Positions 20,966-60,937 of a stretch of 64,000 nt of DNA are shown in pieces. Where the stretch lies: assembly GCA_016787295.1 (NCBI GenBank), contig JAEUUX010000100.1, positions 1-64,000 of the forward strand. Reading direction: 5' to 3'. The notes beneath the pieces are model-generated. The model did no database searches, was not told where the DNA came from, and saw nothing but the letters and a program-made list of their open reading frames with translations. The stretch is from Chitinophagales bacterium (lineage in GTDB: Bacteria; Bacteroidota; Bacteroidia; Chitinophagales; UBA2359). Each line of letters begins with the position of its first letter. Position 1 is the first letter of the stretch. Position numbers and translations under genes: made by a program.

Positions 20966-23878
20966 ATGGATTTACAAGAAGCTCTCATGCGCATAGAACA
21001 GGCGCGCCAACAACAACTAAAAACCTTAGACCTTACTAATTGTAGCTTAACGGAGATTCCGAGTGCGGTATTTGCACTTTCGCAACTTACGGAACTAAAA
21101 TTGGGACATTGGTCGGACTATAGCAAACAACACAAAAACGCTATTCGCCAATTACCCGCTACCATTGCACAGCTCACCCATCTGCAAAGCCTCGAACTGA
21201 GTAGTAATGAAATTTCGCATTTGCCCGAAGAACTGTGTATGTTGAGTCATTTGCAACTCCTCGATTTGAGCAACAACCGCCTTCAACAATTACCCGAAAA
21301 TATCGGGCAGTTGCAACAATTACATACGCTCGATGTTAATAATAATCAACTGACACAGTTGCCCGATAGTTTGGCGGAGTTGGAACAGTTGCAACGCCTC
21401 AATTTTAGCAAAAATCGCCTTCATAGTTTTTTGCAACGCAACCCCAAATGGCAAAAATTGCAGCGTTTGGACATTAGCAACAACCAATTGACCGAATTTC
21501 CGACCGTTTTGGCAGGATTGGCTAATTTGGAGCAGTTAAGTTTGAGCAATAATCGTTTGAGTGCTTTGCCAGAAGCGATTAACCAATTTCCGACCATCAA
21601 AATTTTATATCTCAACAATAACCAAATCAAACAATTGCCTCAAGAATGGTACGGTTTGCGGGCATTGCGCCGTTTTTATCTCAACAACAACCAAGTAGAG
21701 TATTTGCCAAAAGGTTTTGCACAGCTCGCCGATTTGCATTTGCTCGATTTGGGTAACAATAACTTGGACGAATTGCCGCCTGTCTTGTTGGAATTGAAAA
21801 ATTTGGCATATTTAGATGTTCGCAAAAACCACATTTCTCATCTTCCCGAAGCACTTGCACAATTGCAGCAATTACAGATGCTCGATGTGCGCGATAATAT
21901 GATTGCGCAAGTGCCGTCGGCAATTGTGCGACTACCCAATTTACAACACCTCTATATATCCGAAAATCCATTGGAGTCGCCGCCACCCGAAATCGCCAAT
22001 CGCGGTTTAACTGCCATGCAAACTTATTTCACTGCCTTAGAAAAATCTAACGAACAAGATTATATTCACGAAATAAAGTTGTTGTTGGTAGGAGAGGGGC
22101 GCGTCGGTAAAACTTCCTTGACCAAATCAATCACCATTCCCGATTATGTTCTCGAAGACCACCAAAGCACCGAAGGCATAGACATTAGACCTTGGTACAT
22201 AGACAAAAACGAGTTGGGTACATCGCGCGATTTTCGAGTGAATATTTGGGACTTTGGCGGACAAGAAATCTACCACACCACCCACCAATTTTTCTTGACC
22301 AAAAGGTCGATTTATTTGTTGGTGACCGAGTCGCGCAAAGAGGATAAGCACGAGGATTTTTATTATTGGCTCAATATCATTCGTTTGTTGGGCGGTAGAA
22401 GTCCTGTTATTATTGTCCTGAACAAATGCGATCAACCTACCAAAGATTTGCCAATTAAGGAATATCGAAAAACGTTTACGAATATTGTCGATTTCAGCAA
22501 AATCAGTTGTCAACCTGACTATAAAGGAACTATCAATAGTTTGCAGCGAAAAATTCGCCAAATTTTACAAAGTCCCGAATTGTTGCCGCACCTTAGTACG
22601 CCATTGCCAAAAGTATGGGTAGATATTCGTCAAAAATTAGAAGATTTGCGCAATGAAAGTATCGATTACATCAGTTATCAGGATTACCTAAAAATCTGTA
22701 AACGCTATTATCAAAACGAAACCAACGCTTTGTTTTTGAGCGAGTTTTTCCATGATTTGGGCGTAATGTTGCATTTTCAAGATGACCCTATTTTGCGCGA
22801 AACCATCTTTTTGAACCATGATTGGGTGACCCAAGGTGTATATAAGGTGTTGGACAACCAAGTGGTGAAAAACAAACAAGGCAATTTCACCGAAGCCGAT
22901 TTGGAGACAATTTGGAGCGATTATCGCTATGCTAACCGTCGAAAAGAGCTTTTTGCTTTGATGCGCAACGATAAATTTGAGTTGTGTTTTGAGGTATCGC
23001 CCGGACATTATTTAGCACCGCAATTGTTACCAGTCGACGAAATTGAACACGATTGGCAGCCACGTGGACAGTATTTGCGCTTCGAATACCGCTATCAATT
23101 TATGCCCAAAGGTACTTTGACGCGTTTTATTGTTAAACAACACGCCAATATTTATCGCAATACCTATTGGCGCTATGGTGTTTTGTTGTCCAAAAACAAT
23201 ACACGGGCTTTGATTAAAGAAAATTATTTTGACCGAAAAATTAGCATTGCCATAGAGGGTGACAACAGCCAAGAACTTTTGCATCAAGCCCGCCAAACCA
23301 TTAACGAACTCAACAGTTCTTTTAACAATGTGATGGTAGACGAAATGGTGGCGTGCAATTGTTTGGCGTGTGCCAATAGCAAAACTCCGCATTATTTCAA
23401 GTTGGAAGTATTGTTGAAATATGCCCAAAATGCCAAACCTCAAATCGATTGCGAAAAAAGTTTGGCATCAGTAGAAGTATTGCGTTTGCTGCATACTGTT
23501 TTGCCCAGCGAAGATATTCGCGAGTTGGTGTGGGAAAGCGAAGACCAAGCCGCTACCGCCCGCTACGAAAATCTTAACCTGCCCAAAGAAGAAGACAAAG
23601 CTGAAATATCGCAACCTGCTCCGCCCGAAGCTGCTGTTGGCACTATTGAGGAGCTCGAACCTATTGCCACGCCGCAAAAAGCCGATGCTATTAGGCAGAC
23701 CTTAGCAGAAAGCTACAACCAGGGCAGTTCGAAGCTGTCTAATATTGTTAAGAATACCACAGACAATATAACTACTCCGCCCTCCGAAGAAAAACCTAAG
23801 TGGTTGATGTGGGTGAGTGTGGCGTTTTTGTTAGCTGTGTTTGCTGTAGCAGCCTACTTTTTGATGCAGTCTTTGTAG
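20966..23878 (+). CDS. Roco-type protein: LRR, Roc GTPase, COR, C-terminal TM
   Basis: The 970-residue protein has about 14 leucine-rich repeats (residues 10-350, consensus LxxLPxxIxxLxxLxxLxLxxN) and a Ras-of-complex (Roc) GTPase at about 365-535. P-loop GEGRVGKTS is at about 375, the switch-II WDFGGQE and the specificity loop NKCD at about 484. It continues with a COR domain (about 545-780), a Cys-containing segment (CNCLAC at about 795) and an acidic linker, and ends in a single TM helix (about 948-968). The catalytic Gln after WDFGG is present, so it is probably an active GTPase. Bacterial Roco proteins are the relatives of LRRK2 used as structural models. The C-terminal membrane anchor, with the LRR on the cytoplasmic side, is a less usual layout. 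Confidence 0.93.
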   Translation: MDLQEALMRIEQARQQQLKTLDLTNCSLTEIPSAVFALSQLTELKLGHWSDYSKQHKNAIRQLPATIAQLTHLQSLELSSNEISHLPEELCMLSHLQLLDLSNNRLQQLPENIGQLQQLHTLDVNNNQLTQLPDSLAELEQLQRLNFSKNRLHSFLQRNPKWQKLQRLDISNNQLTEFPTVLAGLANLEQLSLSNNRLSALPEAINQFPTIKILYLNNNQIKQLPQEWYGLRALRRFYLNNNQVEYLPKGFAQLADLHLLDLGNNNLDELPPVLLELKNLAYLDVRKNHISHLPEALAQLQQLQMLDVRDNMIAQVPSAIVRLPNLQHLYISENPLESPPPEIANRGLTAMQTYFTALEKSNEQDYIHEIKLLLVGEGRVGKTSLTKSITIPDYVLEDHQSTEGIDIRPWYIDKNELGTSRDFRVNIWDFGGQEIYHTTHQFFLTKRSIYLLVTESRKEDKHEDFYYWLNIIRLLGGRSPVIIVLNKCDQPTKDLPIKEYRKTFTNIVDFSKISCQPDYKGTINSLQRKIRQILQSPELLPHLSTPLPKVWVDIRQKLEDLRNESIDYISYQDYLKICKRYYQNETNALFLSEFFHDLGVMLHFQDDPILRETIFLNHDWVTQGVYKVLDNQVVKNKQGNFTEADLETIWSDYRYANRRKELFALMRNDKFELCFEVSPGHYLAPQLLPVDEIEHDWQPRGQYLRFEYRYQFMPKGTLTRFIVKQHANIYRNTYWRYGVLLSKNNTRALIKENYFDRKISIAIEGDNSQELLHQARQTINELNSSFNNVMVDEMVACNCLACANSKTPHYFKLEVLLKYAQNAKPQIDCEKSLASVEVLRLLHTVLPSEDIRELVWESEDQAATARYENLNLPKEEDKAEISQPAPPEAAVGTIEELEPIATPQKADAIRQTLAESYNQGSSKLSNIVKNTTDNITTPPSEEKPKWLMWVSVAFLLAVFAVAAYFLMQSL

Positions 23879-55231: not shown

Positions 55232-55897
55232 TTAAGGTGCTAAACGCTCGATGTGCCATATTCCTGTAGTGGCTTCATACTGATAAGCAATGCGGTCATG
55301 CAAACGGTTTGTTCTACCTTGCCAAAACTCAAAATAGTGGGGGTGCAAGCTATAGCCTCCCCAATGTTCGGGTCTTTGCGGTTGTTGTTTTTGTTGTTCA
55401 TATTGCTCGCTAAGGTGCGCCATACGGGTTTCCAATAGCTCGCGCGATTCTATCACTTCGCTTTGTGGTGAGGCAATAGCCCCAATTTGACTACCCAGTG
55501 GGCGCGACGAAAAATAACTATCCGATACTTCGGGTGCTATTTTTTGCAAAGTCCCCTCGATGCGAACTTGTCGGTGCAATTTGTCCCAGTAAAACAACAA
55601 AGAACCATGCGGATTTTGAGCGATTTCGCGTCCTTTGCGGCTTTGGTAGTTAGTAAAAAAAACAAAACCTTGTTCTACCCCAAAGTCTTTGAGTAAGACT
55701 GTTCTGATAGAAGGAATGGCTTGACTATTAGCGGTGGCTAAAATCATGGCATTTGGTTCATAAAAATTAGCTTCGATGGTTGCATTGAGCCATTGCCTAA
55801 ACTGCTCAAAAGGGGAAGATTGCACAGCCGTTTCAGATAAACTATATAGGTCATAATTTTGTCTAAAATCGGCAAGTTGTTGGTCATTTTTATTCAT
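55232..55897 (-). CDS. pdxH: Pyridoxamine 5'-phosphate oxidase
   Basis: The 221-residue FMN enzyme oxidises PNP/PMP to PLP. The family signatures are all visible: MILATANSQAIPSIRTVLLKDF, GFVFFTNYQSRKGREIAQNP (FMN-phosphate loop), GSLLFYWDKLHRQVRIEG, and the C-terminal EHWGGYSLHPHYFEFWQGRTNRLHDR. I use the Met at 55897 where homology begins; an in-frame ATG at 55933 exists. It makes the PLP cofactor used by neighbouring speA. Confidence 0.95.
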   Translation of the reverse strand: MNKNDQQLADFRQNYDLYSLSETAVQSSPFEQFRQWLNATIEANFYEPNAMILATANSQAIPSIRTVLLKDFGVEQGFVFFTNYQSRKGREIAQNPHGSLLFYWDKLHRQVRIEGTLQKIAPEVSDSYFSSRPLGSQIGAIASPQSEVIESRELLETRMAHLSEQYEQQKQQPQRPEHWGGYSLHPHYFEFWQGRTNRLHDRIAYQYEATTGIWHIERLAP

Positions 55898-55997
55898 GGT
55901 ATAAATTTTGCTAAATAGGCTACAAAAGTACATAAGTATTGTCAGATGACCAATACCTTCCTATTAATTACTTCATAAAAATCTAAATTTTAACGGT

Positions 55998-56327
55998 ATG
56001 TCACAAGAAAATATTAATCCACAAGGCTCTCAAATAGATGCCATGCGCGAGATATTGTTCGGCAACAATATGAAACAATATGATGCCGAATTTTCAGCGG
56101 TTCGTCAAATCATGACCAAAAACCGCACCGAAACCGACCGCGATATACAAACTTTGCGCAACGAAATGAACGAAGCTCTTAGCCGTATGGAACAACGCCT
56201 TAGCTTACAGATGCAACGCAACCATGAAGAAGTCTTGGAAGCCATTCAGCGCTTAGACATGATAAAAACCGACAAAACACAGTTGAGCAAGTTGTTAGTA
56301 GAAATTGGAACACAAATTGCTATGTAA
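55998..56327 (+). CDS. Small coiled-coil protein, first gene of the GTPase cluster
   Basis: The 109-residue protein is almost entirely helical, with heptads across about residues 30-95 (TLRNEMNEALSRMEQRLSLQ region), charged and without TM or signal. No family recognised. It begins the plus-strand series with the Roadblock-like, lipoprotein, Ras-like and kinase-like genes and gldF. It may act as an adaptor between partners of that cluster (inference). Confidence 0.65.
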   Translation: MSQENINPQGSQIDAMREILFGNNMKQYDAEFSAVRQIMTKNRTETDRDIQTLRNEMNEALSRMEQRLSLQMQRNHEEVLEAIQRLDMIKTDKTQLSKLLVEIGTQIAM

Positions 56328-56409
56328 GTTTGTTTTTTCGACAAAAAACACCTATTTTTGCATCTGATTAGACGTGCCATAATTGGTTGCTAATAGTATT
56401 AATTGAGCT

Positions 56410-57297
56410 ATGAACCCTAATACCGACTTAGAACAGCTACGGAATATTCTTTTAAACAGTGACCGCAAACAGCTCCAGCAGTTGCACGACGAACTGATGT
56501 CACTCACTTTTGAGATGCAAGATACCAAAAGTGATATGGAACGTTTGCGCCTATTATTAGATAGCTTGAATACTATTGTCGAAAATCCTGATAAGTTTGG
56601 TGACAAAGTGAATCCTTTGGTTAACTTAAAAATAGCGGAACTAAAAAATAATTTTTCGCAAGTTTTTGGCAACGAAATCCGTTCAACCGTCCAAACAGGT
56701 ATCCGACAATCGCGCGGTGAGTTTATTGATGCCATGTATCCCATCATTGGTAAATTGGTGCGGCGCTATGTGCGTTCGCAGTTCGATTCTTTTTTGGACG
56801 ATATTGGACAACGAATCGAAAATAGCTTATCCATCAATTGGTGGGCGCGAAAAGCCAAATCGCTGTTCTCGGGTGTAAGCGAACAAGAACTGCTGTTGAG
56901 CGAAGCGCTCCGATTTCAGATAGAAGAAGTGTTTTTTGTACAACACCATTCGGGTTTGTTGCTCGCCAGCTATTCGCGCAACAATACCTTAGATGTCGAT
57001 ATGATTGCGGGTATGCTAACAGCTATCAAATCGTTTGTAGAAAGTGCTTTTAACAATACCACCGACGATTTGGAGTCGATTAACTATGGCGATTATCGAA
57101 TTTTGCTGACCAATTTTCATAGTTATTATGCCGCCTCAGTCGTATCGGGAACTATCACTAATGCCAACAAACAAGCCATCGAAACAGTATTGACAGAATT
57201 TGCTGCCCAAAATATCCCCACCACTATAGACAATGTAGATAATTTTCTCTACGAATCCTTGTCATCACAGTTGAAACAGACTTTCGACAACCTATAA
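56410..57297 (+). CDS. Roadblock/LC7-like domain protein with N-terminal coiled coil
   Basis: The 295-residue soluble protein has an N-terminal coiled coil (about residues 5-75, QLQQLHDELMSLTFEMQDT), a central helical segment (about 90-155, including SRGEFIDAMYPIIGKLVRRY) and a C-terminal domain (about 165-285) with the beta-helix-beta pattern of Roadblock/LC7 proteins: a VFFVQHHSGLLLASYSRN strand pair, a long helix with IAGMLTAIKSFVESAF and an INYGDYRILLTNF strand. The central and Roadblock-like parts resemble the N-terminal regions of certain OmpA-family proteins in other phyla, but the OmpA domain is missing here. Roadblock proteins usually pair with small GTPases, and a Ras-like GTPase lies two genes downstream. 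The domain call is by pattern, not search. Confidence 0.7.
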   Translation: MNPNTDLEQLRNILLNSDRKQLQQLHDELMSLTFEMQDTKSDMERLRLLLDSLNTIVENPDKFGDKVNPLVNLKIAELKNNFSQVFGNEIRSTVQTGIRQSRGEFIDAMYPIIGKLVRRYVRSQFDSFLDDIGQRIENSLSINWWARKAKSLFSGVSEQELLLSEALRFQIEEVFFVQHHSGLLLASYSRNNTLDVDMIAGMLTAIKSFVESAFNNTTDDLESINYGDYRILLTNFHSYYAASVVSGTITNANKQAIETVLTEFAAQNIPTTIDNVDNFLYESLSSQLKQTFDNL

Positions 57298-57334
57298 ATA
57301 GAAGAAAGATTTGGACGGCAAATTACTATAAATT

Positions 57335-58168
57335 ATGGCGTATTTTATGTCTATCTACCACTCAAATTTTCTAAAACTAAGTCTTTTTGCACTGTCCCTC
57401 TGCCAACTATCCTGCTCTTTTTCGTCCGAAAAAACATCTTTAGTAGCAACACCAAACAAAGATAGTGTTGCTATGATATCTGCCACCAATTCGTTGACTA
57501 CCCCAGACAGTATTGCAACCATCGACTCAATGCAGCCATCACCTATTTGGGGGTATCGTTTGGCAATTAGTGGCGATTTTGATGGTAATGGCACGACCGA
57601 ACAATTGCTCGAACATTATTGGAGCCAACACACCCAAAAAGAAACCAACAAATTCTATGAAGGTTTGGCAGAATATGAACAATTGGTAGACCTGACTATT
57701 CAAAAAGCACCTTATTCTTTTTTGCTATCCAACAATACTGCCATAGACACATTGCTCATAAGCGATAAAGAACAACAGTTGGGTGTTTTTTATCTCAAAA
57801 ATGAAGGCGACTTGAATGATGATGGCACAGACGAAGTAGGATATGTGGTCAATTGGGCAGATTGGTCGAGCATCAATACCTACTATATTGTGTCTTTTGC
57901 AACTGGAAAATGGCATACTTTGTATGAATTTCCGATTTGGGATTGGCAACTGCCCGACCCACCCAATACCTCGCAACAATATGGTTTGTTTGGCTTGGAA
58001 AACACCCTTGTTGAGCCAACCAACGACACATTGATGGCTTCCGAGCAAAATTCGCCGCCATTTAGAGGTTTAGTTAAAAAACTTGGCACTAACAAAATCC
58101 AAGTTATTTATCGCAACGACGAAGCAGAAGAAGATTCCATGATAGTCCGCCTCAAAAAAAAGCGATAA
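57335..58168 (+). CDS. Lipoprotein with DxDxNG-type (EF-hand-like) loops
   Basis: The 277-residue protein has an SPII signal with Cys27 (ALSLCQLSC), assuming translation from 57335; the Met at 57347 also gives a good signal. The mature chain contains SGDFDGNGTTEQ and GDLNDDGTDEVGY, loops resembling Ca-binding FG-GAP or EF-hand-like motifs, in a beta-rich domain. No named family is assigned. It lies between the Roadblock-like and Ras-like genes with 37- and 149-bp gaps. An envelope sensor for the cytoplasmic GTPase module is a possible role (inference). Confidence 0.7.
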   Translation: MAYFMSIYHSNFLKLSLFALSLCQLSCSFSSEKTSLVATPNKDSVAMISATNSLTTPDSIATIDSMQPSPIWGYRLAISGDFDGNGTTEQLLEHYWSQHTQKETNKFYEGLAEYEQLVDLTIQKAPYSFLLSNNTAIDTLLISDKEQQLGVFYLKNEGDLNDDGTDEVGYVVNWADWSSINTYYIVSFATGKWHTLYEFPIWDWQLPDPPNTSQQYGLFGLENTLVEPTNDTLMASEQNSPPFRGLVKKLGTNKIQVIYRNDEAEEDSMIVRLKKKR

Positions 58169-58317
58169 CACATACACAAATTTCCAATGTCATATTCACT
58201 TCTTGGTGGTTTAGTCCATAAGAAGTGATGACCATCATATATTCTCAAATACTGTTTTTACGGAGTATAACAACCCAAAGTCCTATTTTTTTTAACTATC
58301 ACAACCAACAAAACTAA

Positions 58318-58818
58318 ATGATACGTTCTATCAGCAAAAAAATCATTTTGGCGGGTAGCTATGGTGTAGGTAAAACATCTTTGATTAGTCGGTTTGTTTA
58401 CCAACGTTTTTCTTTTAGCTATCAAGCAACACTCGGCGTTCGCATCGACCGAAAGGTAGTCAATTTACCCAATTTAACCCTCAATATGTTGATTTGGGAT
58501 ATTGGCGGTGATGTAACACAAGCTAAAATTCCAGAATCCTACTACTTGGGCAGTAGTGGCACCATCTATGTTTTTGATGTTAGCCGTCCCAATTCTTTTG
58601 AGCAAGTTGGCAAAGATATAGATTTGCTTAAAGACAAAATGCCCAATACCCCTATTTTGGTAGTAGGTAACAAAGCAGATTTATTAGAACCAAATCTGCT
58701 TCATGCCTTAGACCAGCAACTTCCTGTTCCTGTAAACTATTACACAAGTGCATTAGACGGAACAAACGTAGAAGAAACATTTTTACAATTAGCTCAATCC
58801 ATTGCCCAAAATGCCTAA
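58318..58818 (+). CDS. Ras-like small GTPase with Gln-to-Asp change in switch II
   Basis: The 166-residue protein has all five G boxes: G1 GSYGVGKTS (13-21), G2 Thr38, G3 DIGGD (61-65), G4 NKAD (118-121) and G5 TSAL (143-146). It is a Rab/Ras-type domain without lipidation signals or extra domains. In Ras the residue after the DxxG Gly is the catalytic Gln61; here the equivalent residue is Asp65, so intrinsic hydrolysis is probably slow and a partner may be needed. Its neighbours are a Roadblock-like protein upstream and a kinase-like protein 33 bp downstream. The similarity is to Ras-family GTPases of Bacteria (MglA/Rup type); no eukaryotic transfer is implied. Confidence 0.9.
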   Translation: MIRSISKKIILAGSYGVGKTSLISRFVYQRFSFSYQATLGVRIDRKVVNLPNLTLNMLIWDIGGDVTQAKIPESYYLGSSGTIYVFDVSRPNSFEQVGKDIDLLKDKMPNTPILVVGNKADLLEPNLLHALDQQLPVPVNYYTSALDGTNVEETFLQLAQSIAQNA

Positions 58819-58851
58819 TCCTCTATAATTTTTTTGCTCAACTAACCCAAT

Positions 58852-59928
58852 ATGTCCCTTGATGCTCTAAAATTAAGCTACATCGGTAAACGTTTGCAAG
58901 TTGTCATAATAGACAAAAACGGTTTTTTGATAGATACTTGCAATACATTGCTTACCATACCCGCTACAAGTATATCTTTGTTTGATAACATTGTGTTGTT
59001 GGATAGCCTCCGACACCATTTGAGCCAATTAAAAATAGAGGATACTCCTTTGTTTTTTCCAAACATAGAATTTATATACAACCAACAAACCATTGTGGTT
59101 GACTCTACTTTTTTTGTCAATACCCACAATGAGAGCCAAATCGTGTGGATATTGGACAATGACCCATACGATTATAGGGCTTTGTTCAATATGCAGCAGG
59201 AACGAAACGAATTAGCTATCCGTAGTTTTTATGGACATTGTAACAAAAAAATGGTCGAAAACCTACAAATTATCGACCAAGCCAACGAAAAAATGTACTA
59301 TACACTTGTCCAATATACTGCTGTGCAAGAACAATTGGCACAACCCATACAACATTTGGATAACGTAATTGCCACATTGCAAGAGTATGTAGGCAAAATG
59401 TATTTGCGCGAACTTATCGAACTAAGTAACCAACTACAGACTAATATCCAAAAAATTCCTGCACCTAAAACATATAGAGGCGAAGAACATTTTGTGCCGC
59501 TATTAAGTTTGCTGAATGGTGTCAGCAATGCCATCTGGGTTACGCCACAATTGACCTATAACCCTATTATTGGTATAATCAATTTACAAGAAAGTGATAC
59601 CAATATTTTGCTGCCCGAAATAGCGTTTCGCCAAATCCTATATAATTGGCTTTATCTCATTGTGTACTATTCTAAATCTGCACACATTAGCCTGAACACA
59701 ATAGTAGGACTTAATGAACTACAATTGTTGTGTTCGCACCAAGCACTCAATCCCGCTTACCGAGAGTCATATCATTGGCAATTATGCGAGGCTTGGCTCA
59801 ATGAGTCACACAGCCACATTAATATCGATGAGGCAGCGGAGCAAAGTTGTTTAACAATAACTGTTTTTCAAACTAATGCTATTAATGCAACACCTATAGC
59901 AACTTCATCTGCTAATATTTCTAAATAA
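58852..59928 (+). CDS. Degenerate sensor histidine kinase-like protein (PAS + HATPase-like)
   Basis: The 358-residue soluble protein begins with a PAS-like segment (LQVVIIDKNGFLIDTCNT) and has a central helical region (about 115-205), then a C-terminal part with QILYNWLYLIVYYSKSAHIS, resembling the N-box region of HATPase_c domains where Asn normally lies in NLxxNAxKYS. The canonical phospho-acceptor His, the Asn of the N box and the DxGxG/GxGxG ATP lid are not present. It is therefore likely to have lost kinase activity and to act as a binding scaffold. It begins 33 bp after the GTPase and ends 16 bp before gldF. The assignment is tentative and needs structure prediction. Confidence 0.55.
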   Translation: MSLDALKLSYIGKRLQVVIIDKNGFLIDTCNTLLTIPATSISLFDNIVLLDSLRHHLSQLKIEDTPLFFPNIEFIYNQQTIVVDSTFFVNTHNESQIVWILDNDPYDYRALFNMQQERNELAIRSFYGHCNKKMVENLQIIDQANEKMYYTLVQYTAVQEQLAQPIQHLDNVIATLQEYVGKMYLRELIELSNQLQTNIQKIPAPKTYRGEEHFVPLLSLLNGVSNAIWVTPQLTYNPIIGIINLQESDTNILLPEIAFRQILYNWLYLIVYYSKSAHISLNTIVGLNELQLLCSHQALNPAYRESYHWQLCEAWLNESHSHINIDEAAEQSCLTITVFQTNAINATPIATSSANISK

Positions 59929-59944
59929 TCCTGCTTAGAACAAT

Positions 59945-60676
59945 ATGTTTACCCTATTTAAGAAAGAACTTAGCACATATTTTAGCTCGCTGATTGGCTA
60001 TATCGCCATTCTCATATTTTTGGTACTTATGGGATTGTTCGTGTGGATATTTCCCGACACCAACGTACTAAGTTATGGCTATGCCTCCTTAGACCCTTTG
60101 TTTAGCATAGCGCCATGGGTTTTTATGTTTCTGGTGCCTGCCATCACCATGCGGGCTTTTTCCGAAGAATTTAAAAACGGCACCATTGAATTTTTAGCTA
60201 CCCGTCCGCTCACCGACCTACAAGTTATTTTGGGCAAATATTTTGCGGCGTGGTGCTTAGTGCTGTTTGCCTTGCTGCCCACATTACTCTATTATGTCAC
60301 CATCTATCAATTGGGAGCTACGCCCGGCAACATAGATAGCGGCGCCACGTGGGGATCATATCTTGGTTTGGTGATGCTTAGTGCTGTTTTTGTTGCCATT
60401 GGCATTTTTGCTTCTTCCATGACCCAAAACCAAATTGTGGCATTTTTGTTGGCTGTTTTTTTGTGTTTTTTCTTCTACATGGCTTTTGATTATTTGAGTC
60501 GGCTCAATGTTTTTTATGCTTGGATAGACGATATTGTCGAAAACATTGGCATCAACGCCCACTATCTTTCTATTAGTCGTGGCGTAATTGATACGCGCGA
60601 TGTTCTCTACTTTGCATCGCTAACAGGCGCTTTTATTGCATTGACGCATACTGTTATTGGTAGTAGAAAGTGGTAG
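59945..60676 (+). CDS. gldF: Gliding-motility ABC transporter permease GldF
   Basis: The 243-residue membrane protein fits GldF: N-terminal FKKELSTYFSSLIGYIAILI, the VPAITMRAFSEEFKNGTIEFL segment, LLATRPLTD-like ATRPLTDLQVILGKYFAAW and a C-terminal FYMAFDYLSRLNVFYAWIDD stretch. Six TM helices are expected. GldA-GldF-GldG form an ABC transporter needed for gliding in Flavobacterium; GldG normally follows directly. Here no gldG is found downstream; a decayed small ORF and a terminator follow. It is the last gene of the GTPase cluster. Confidence 0.9.
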   Translation: MFTLFKKELSTYFSSLIGYIAILIFLVLMGLFVWIFPDTNVLSYGYASLDPLFSIAPWVFMFLVPAITMRAFSEEFKNGTIEFLATRPLTDLQVILGKYFAAWCLVLFALLPTLLYYVTIYQLGATPGNIDSGATWGSYLGLVMLSAVFVAIGIFASSMTQNQIVAFLLAVFLCFFFYMAFDYLSRLNVFYAWIDDIVENIGINAHYLSISRGVIDTRDVLYFASLTGAFIALTHTVIGSRKW

Positions 60677-60900: not shown

Positions 60901-60937
60901 AAAAACGCTGATAGAATCTATTTCTATCAGCGTTTTT
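60901..60937 (+). terminator. Strong terminator after the gldF operon
   Basis: AAAAACGCTGATAGAA and TTCTATCAGCGTTTTT form a perfect 16-bp stem across a 5-nt loop, separating the plus-strand cluster from the convergent gene at 60966. Confidence 0.9.

Follow-up and report, generated by a model that had tools for sequence, protein, structure and literature searches.

Group 1 Rup GTPases and a locus in Chitinophagales

The closest described relatives of the system analysed here are the Group 1 Rup GTPases, for which Wuichet and Søgaard-Andersen (2014; PMC4316618) gave a computational description, with Bacteroidetes among the hosts and the glutamine of the G3 motif absent. As described there, the GTPase is encoded beside a cytoplasmic coiled-coil protein and a second partner, whose conserved, unnamed domain frequently precedes a transmembrane helix and an OmpA domain, and the output is a histidine kinase or a cyclic di-GMP enzyme (GGDEF/EAL) whose N-terminal region carries an invariant Gln. 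The authors likened Rup to the conservons, drew their model by that analogy, and speculated that the invariant Gln of the output may serve as the residue for the GTPase. According to that survey no Rup member had been experimentally characterised, and we found no later experimental Rup study in the open-access literature. Here we analyse a candidate locus of this kind in a 64,000-nucleotide stretch of a Chitinophagales bacterium (assembly GCA_016787295.1, contig JAEUUX010000100.1), hereafter the window, in which genes are named by their start coordinates.

Six open reading frames lie together on the + strand of the window, the last being gldF, which begins 16 bp after the gene before it. Four of them (55998, 56410, 58318 and 58852) form a strongly conserved module. 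We consider it likely, with a probability of about 0.72, that the locus represents the Group 1 Rup system in its Bacteroidota form: a relay built on a small GTPase that would work like an actinobacterial conservon. An earlier, sequence-only reading had laid out the six genes correctly and had seen their resemblance to conservons (a small GTPase with a roadblock-type protein and a kinase-like partner), which is the comparison that was also published for the Rup family (PMC4316618). Its claim that the module is new did not survive, in that the locus fits Group 1 Rup as far as the 2014 description goes. New here are a predicted longin/roadblock fold for the unnamed-domain protein, evidence that a PAS-like reader domain is reused and co-occurs with the module, and the pseudokinase state in the window's lineage.

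Curated families matched only two of the six proteins, the GTPase (Pfam Ras, 1.7e-28; small_GTP) and GldF (TIGR03518; score 317 bits, curated cut-off 288.5), in agreement with the identities first proposed for both. The GTPase, 58318 (58318-58818, + strand, 166 amino acids), has intact G1-G5 motifs, including the P-loop GSYGVGKTS, WDIGGD at G3, NKAD at G4 and SA at G5. At the position of the catalytic G3 Gln the window copy has Asp and most family members have Glu; Gln itself occurs in 4 of 90 members, and the Nostoc and Rhizobium copies read WDIEG and WDLAG, respectively. Without this Gln, the GTPase would be expected to hydrolyse GTP slowly unless a residue were contributed by a partner. Rab proteins are its closest solved structures among the 60 matches listed. 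A 54-member tree, built from the GTPase's own relatives and the Nostoc and Rhizobium copies, with neither MglA nor Rup Group 2 as an outgroup, broadly follows taxonomy, and the Nostoc and Rhizobium copies fall outside Bacteroidia. In a sub-branch of seven GTPases (L034-L040) the G3 Gly is replaced as well (WDIAD), and the PAS-kinase is mostly unlinked, on another contig. Among the 12 Ras-type matches of the genome, 58318 is the sole stand-alone Ras-like GTPase. A second Ras/Roc-type domain in the window (22076-22453) lies within a 972-amino-acid open frame, possibly a Roc/leucine-rich-repeat-type protein.

Conservation of the module and the position of gldF

Conservation was followed in 61 genomes searched with the 56410 protein and in 80 named Bacteroidota loci found via the 56410 family, the first 12 of which duplicate organisms already represented among the 61 genomes. 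Carriers of the module include the culturable non-pathogens Aquimarina latercula, Roseivirga ehrenbergii and Flexithrix dorotheae. The 22-member alignment of the 56410 family was too diverse for a pattern search, for which the 12 closest members were usable; a single-protein scan of the genome contigs gave no match. A 56410 homologue was present in 23 of the 61 genomes, and in 19 of 20 within the window's own family. The recurring order is coiled coil, 56410 homologue and GTPase, usually followed by a 58852 homologue or another histidine kinase. The 80 named loci contain the GTPase in 79 cases, the coiled coil in 77 and the PAS-kinase in 73, with all four genes in the window's order in 67; the median intergenic distance is -14 bp from the 56410 homologue to the GTPase, and 3 bp from there to the kinase. 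Distant copies, too, keep homologues of the coiled coil, of the 56410 domain and of the GTPase side by side. They occur on plasmids of Nostoc (L171), Rhizobium (L172) and Mesorhizobium (L173), with other classes of the phylum also represented, and in these copies the gene after the GTPase encodes a PAS-HK-REC-Hpt kinase (HK, histidine kinase), an adenylate cyclase, a sigma-54 activator or a kinase. Upstream of the window's module lies the divergent pdxH (55232-55933). About seven relatives from the family share this adjacency, and the left flank of the locus is therefore ancestral.

The two remaining genes of the original six-gene set did not share in this conservation. One of them, 57335 (57335-58168, + strand, 277 amino acids), is interposed between 56410 and the GTPase and encodes a secreted or lipoprotein-like protein. 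The two calcium-loop-like motifs attributed to it are there (DxDGNG and DxNDDG), but its lipobox is atypical, so that it is no better than a putative lipoprotein. No homologue was found in 20 relatives, and we regard the gene as lying outside the module. A search for a promoter or terminator between it and the GTPase returned consensus-level promoter matches, no more of them than chance would give, and a 9-bp inverted repeat (58196-58228), and nothing else.

The other gene, gldF (59945-60676, + strand, 243 amino acids), is probably co-transcribed with the module, judging from its spacing and strand. It is on this arrangement, and on the fact that the module is common in Bacteroidota, that the proposal of the sequence-only reading would have to stand, namely that the module spatially controls gliding or type IX secretion system (T9SS) motility via GldF, as MglA-MglB sets polarity in Myxococcus. 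The wider distribution of gldF makes this very improbable. gldF adjoins the module in none of the 22 other module genomes and in none of the 80 named loci; in one genome (G015) it shares the module's contig at a distance of about 13 kb. Near-universal in the order, it is present in 58 of the 61 genomes, with or without the module, compared with 23 of 61 for the module, which argues against a specific association, and three module genomes have no gldF match, one of them (G005) being 98% complete. Nostoc and Rhizobium, which carry the module, are not known to have gld genes. Finally, gldF normally forms a gldFG pair: at all 20 other loci examined, gldG comes directly after it. The full-scoring gldG of the window genome lies on another contig (G000:C294:5916-7595), where the upstream sequence, about 0.5 kb or more, is free of gldF, and weaker paralogues of gldF and gldG are also present (C288, C142). 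The separation of gldF from gldG and its present place behind the module are a single-genome rearrangement, with no conserved association. On the 3' side of gldF, a perfect 16-bp inverted repeat with a 5-nucleotide loop and A/T-rich flanks (60901-60937, no strand) is probably a bidirectional terminator that closes the transcription unit; it was found as an inverted repeat, and a simple terminator scan did not report it.

The longin/roadblock-like partner and the kinase-like output

The first gene of the module, 55998 (55998-56327, + strand), encodes a 109-amino-acid coiled-coil protein, a putative scaffold component, with conserved N-terminal (IDAxRxIxFGxxM) and C-terminal (KxDRxxLxxLLxxIG) motifs. 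Of the 80 named loci, 77 have its homologue directly 5' of the 56410 homologue, as do most relatives in the family, and in Nostoc and Rhizobium it lies beside the module.

The second gene, 56410 (56410-57297, + strand, 295 amino acids), encodes a helical stalk followed by a C-terminal domain predicted to have a longin/roadblock fold, which makes it a candidate regulator or scaffold of the GTPase. The domain had no significant match in Pfam, and scans of 22 members of the family returned mostly coiled-coil noise, with Fuz_longin_1 weak in three of them. A search of PDB sequences with the 56410 profile gave chance coiled-coil matches only, and the fold assignment therefore rests on structure comparison. 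In an AlphaFold2 model made with 22 homologues, the long helical N-terminal part is followed by a C-terminal domain (residues ~158-293) with the element order a-b-b-a-b-b-b-a-a, which contains the roadblock/longin topology a-b-b-a-b-b-b-a. Foldseek searches of the PDB matched this model to the TRAPP subunit Bet5 (3cue_C, E=1.7e-5), with a probability of 1.00 to several longin/roadblock proteins, and further to other TRAPP subunits, Mon1-Ccz1, Fuzzy-Inturned, AP-2 sigma, p14/MP1 and Ragulator, all of which have longin/roadblock folds. The best single-domain matches reached target-normalised template-modelling (TM) scores of 0.5-0.69. The Roadblock-like label that 56410 was first given thus holds as a fold prediction, and not as membership of Robl_LC7 (PF03259), which had no match in 56410 or in the whole genome.

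In the homologues of 56410 from Nostoc, Mesorhizobium and other classes, where scanned, OmpA follows C-terminally, and the 56410 domain shares homology with the N-terminal portion of OmpA proteins encoded next to Rup genes (hmmsearch ~1e-27 to 1e-59). The window copy has neither a transmembrane segment nor an OmpA tail. Cytophagales modules include an extra protein with an N-terminal membrane segment and a PG_binding_1 domain (L057:8954-9580, L119:10819-11448), whose gene shifts position together with rearrangement of the module (L087, L112, L119). This separate protein would fit as a counterpart of the fused OmpA form found elsewhere.

The output gene, 58852 (58852-59928, + strand, 358 amino acids), encodes a PAS-like domain and a degenerate histidine kinase. 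The protein had no match in Pfam, HATPase_c included, and the AlphaFold2 model (mean predicted local distance difference test score, pLDDT, 82) shows a PAS-like N-domain (residues 1-~104, pLDDT 86-98), a signalling helix that carries QQERNE, and a kinase-like remainder; Foldseek matched it to LOV/PAS histidine kinases. The H-box, AVQEQLAQPI, lacks the phospho-acceptor His and the second N-box Asn is replaced, so the protein falls short of a histidine kinase, in line with the degenerate kinase-like assignment made at the outset. Its orthologues are PAS/HisKA/HATPase kinases, two of which (L021, L023) keep HisKA and HATPase while others are degraded to varying degrees. The loss is common to the window and its sister genomes (L026-L028); flavobacterial and cytophagal orthologues are mostly intact.

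It is possible that the locus is an ancestral Rup relay in decay, with a dead kinase output and an operon opened by insertion, which may no longer signal. Beyond the missing His acceptor and HATPase match, a foreign gene of 277 amino acids and 1 kb of sequence now separate two genes that usually overlap, gldF has moved in behind the module, and the end branch of the window GTPase is 0.5 in the tree, compared with about 0.02-0.4 in its close relatives. We take the inserted gene and the long branch as mild signs of relaxed constraint. All four open reading frames, however, are open and full length, the G motifs of the GTPase are intact, and 58852 keeps the residues Q16, Q116 and N119 that are conserved among its relatives (Q16 in 74 of 79 N-domains, and the Q116..N119 motif after the domain in nearly all linked copies). 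Moreover, the sisters L026-L028 share the kinase loss and have tight operons, which suggests a stable pseudokinase state. Decay is thus an unlikely explanation, although a less remote one than control of gliding.

Within Bacteroidia the PAS-like N-domain of the output is found with a histidine kinase, a hybrid histidine kinase, LytTR or SpoIIE, or alone (133-139 amino acids); distant output N-domains from outside Bacteroidia aligned poorly, and PAS-like homology is therefore claimed within Bacteroidia only. Individual cases with a SpoIIE-type phosphatase or a LytTR DNA-binding domain are L118:6554-7804, L087:8802-9575 and L119:8721-9497. In one Cytophagales module a LytTR response regulator (L060:13246-13938) follows the hybrid kinase, and genes of similar size stand there in other Cytophagales loci. 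Four Flavobacteriaceae loci (L096, L099, L103, L106, including Bizionia) have two tandem PAS-hybrid kinases 3' of the GTPase. The LytTR, SpoIIE, adenylate-cyclase and sigma-54-activator contexts appear to go beyond the outputs given in the 2014 description (PMC4316618).

The N-domain also tracks the module across genomes. In the 61-genome sample, the N-domain and a 56410 homologue were both present in 18 genomes and both absent from 37, and 5 and 1 were discordant (Fisher p=4e-10, with shared ancestry ignored). Seven genomes whose module has no linked N-domain copy encode an intact N-domain kinase on a different contig. An unlinked partner that tracks the module would be evidence of function beyond mere neighbourhood, though nearly all of these genomes are from one family.

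A proposed relay and its comparison with known systems

In the relay that we propose, the coiled-coil and longin/roadblock proteins would hold and regulate the GTPase. The input would likely be the state of the cell envelope, because the longin protein is fused to OmpA, which binds peptidoglycan, in other phyla and has a membrane-anchored peptidoglycan-binding neighbour in Cytophagales. The PAS-like domain of the output would then sense whether Rup carries GTP or GDP and would control, in most cases, a histidine kinase or, in some lineages, a domain for DNA binding or a phosphatase. Because the kinase of the window's lineage has lost its catalytic residues, its output would have to act by binding, as a pseudokinase, unless it is decaying. 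A more specific version can be put forward only tentatively, and we would sooner doubt it than rely on it: a longin protein, linked to peptidoglycan either directly or via a partner, would control which nucleotide a Gln-less, Rab-like GTPase carries; this GTPase would be read by a PAS domain that is dedicated to it and whose invariant Gln perhaps completes the active site in trans, and the PAS domain would drive interchangeable outputs, with the window's lineage having a pseudokinase effector comparable to eukaryotic GTPase-effector pairs.

Several observations weigh against the proposed Rup-type relay. The 56410 model is of moderate quality (mean pLDDT 68, with the C-terminal domain at ~53-88), and its whole-chain TM-score is low (0.3) because only the C-terminal domain matches. 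The hint at the level of sequence is marginal (Fuz_longin_1, E=0.21, residues 175-256). No invariant Arg or Gln was seen in the longin domain of the 56410 family, so GTPase-activating protein (GAP) activity is not indicated; a role as exchange factor or scaffold seems at least as likely. Two modules (L032, L033) have no linked output gene. Finally, the module genomes in the 61-genome sample come almost entirely from one family.

By comparison with Group 1 Rup as published (PMC4316618), the window shares the stand-alone Ras-like GTPase with eukaryote-like G1-G5 and without the G3 Gln (Asp in the window; 86 of 90 family members lack Gln) and the adjacent coiled-coil gene. It also shares the adjacent unnamed-domain protein, here 56410, for which the definition gives the transmembrane and OmpA tail only as 'often' present, and the output N-domain with a conserved Gln, for which Q16 is the candidate. 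It differs in that the Bacteroidia copies of the unnamed-domain protein lack the transmembrane/OmpA extension, that the output kinase of the window is degenerate, and that its operon is interrupted by an unrelated gene.

Conservons (CvnA-D) likewise combine a histidine-kinase-like protein, a roadblock-type protein and a small GTPase in one operon, and MglA-MglB of Myxococcus pairs a small GTPase with a roadblock-superfamily partner. Given these common parts, one might assign the locus to the MglA-MglB or conservon (MglA group 2) families instead of Rup, and of the alternatives considered we find this one the hardest to credit. The G3 motif, in WDIGGD, starts with Asp and differs from the TVPGQ or GTPGQ of the MglA groups (PMC4316618), and no MglA appears among the 60 structures listed for the GTPase. 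Conservons are further distinguished by an MglA group 2 GTPase (GTPGQ), CvnB as a short MglB, a membrane kinase CvnA with an LPxR tail, and a DUF742-type CvnC. The window has a different G3, the Robl_LC7 protein expected of CvnB was not found in the genome, and the locus encodes neither a HAMP kinase with transmembrane segments nor a further protein of unknown domain that would correspond to CvnC. In contrast to MglA-MglB, the window's GTPase is of another class, its partner is long and helical with a longin-like domain, and the module has a PAS/kinase output in cis and no conserved motility gene.

The Rup system spans Bacteroidota, Cyanobacteria and Proteobacteria, and its longin/roadblock partner and modular PAS-like reader provide concrete hypotheses for a regulator and an effector, which were previously missing. 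Compared with eukaryotic longin regulators, 56410 lacks significant sequence similarity and has a long helical stalk, with an OmpA fusion in other phyla. What it is predicted to share with TRAPP Bet5, Mon1-Ccz1 and Ragulator p14/MP1 is the fold of its C-terminal domain, and those proteins act on or hold Rab/Rag GTPases. Through the Rup relay, the pairing of longin/roadblock proteins with Ras-like GTPases, which is central to eukaryotic membrane traffic and to Asgard archaea, would reach into a bacterial sensor-kinase pathway.

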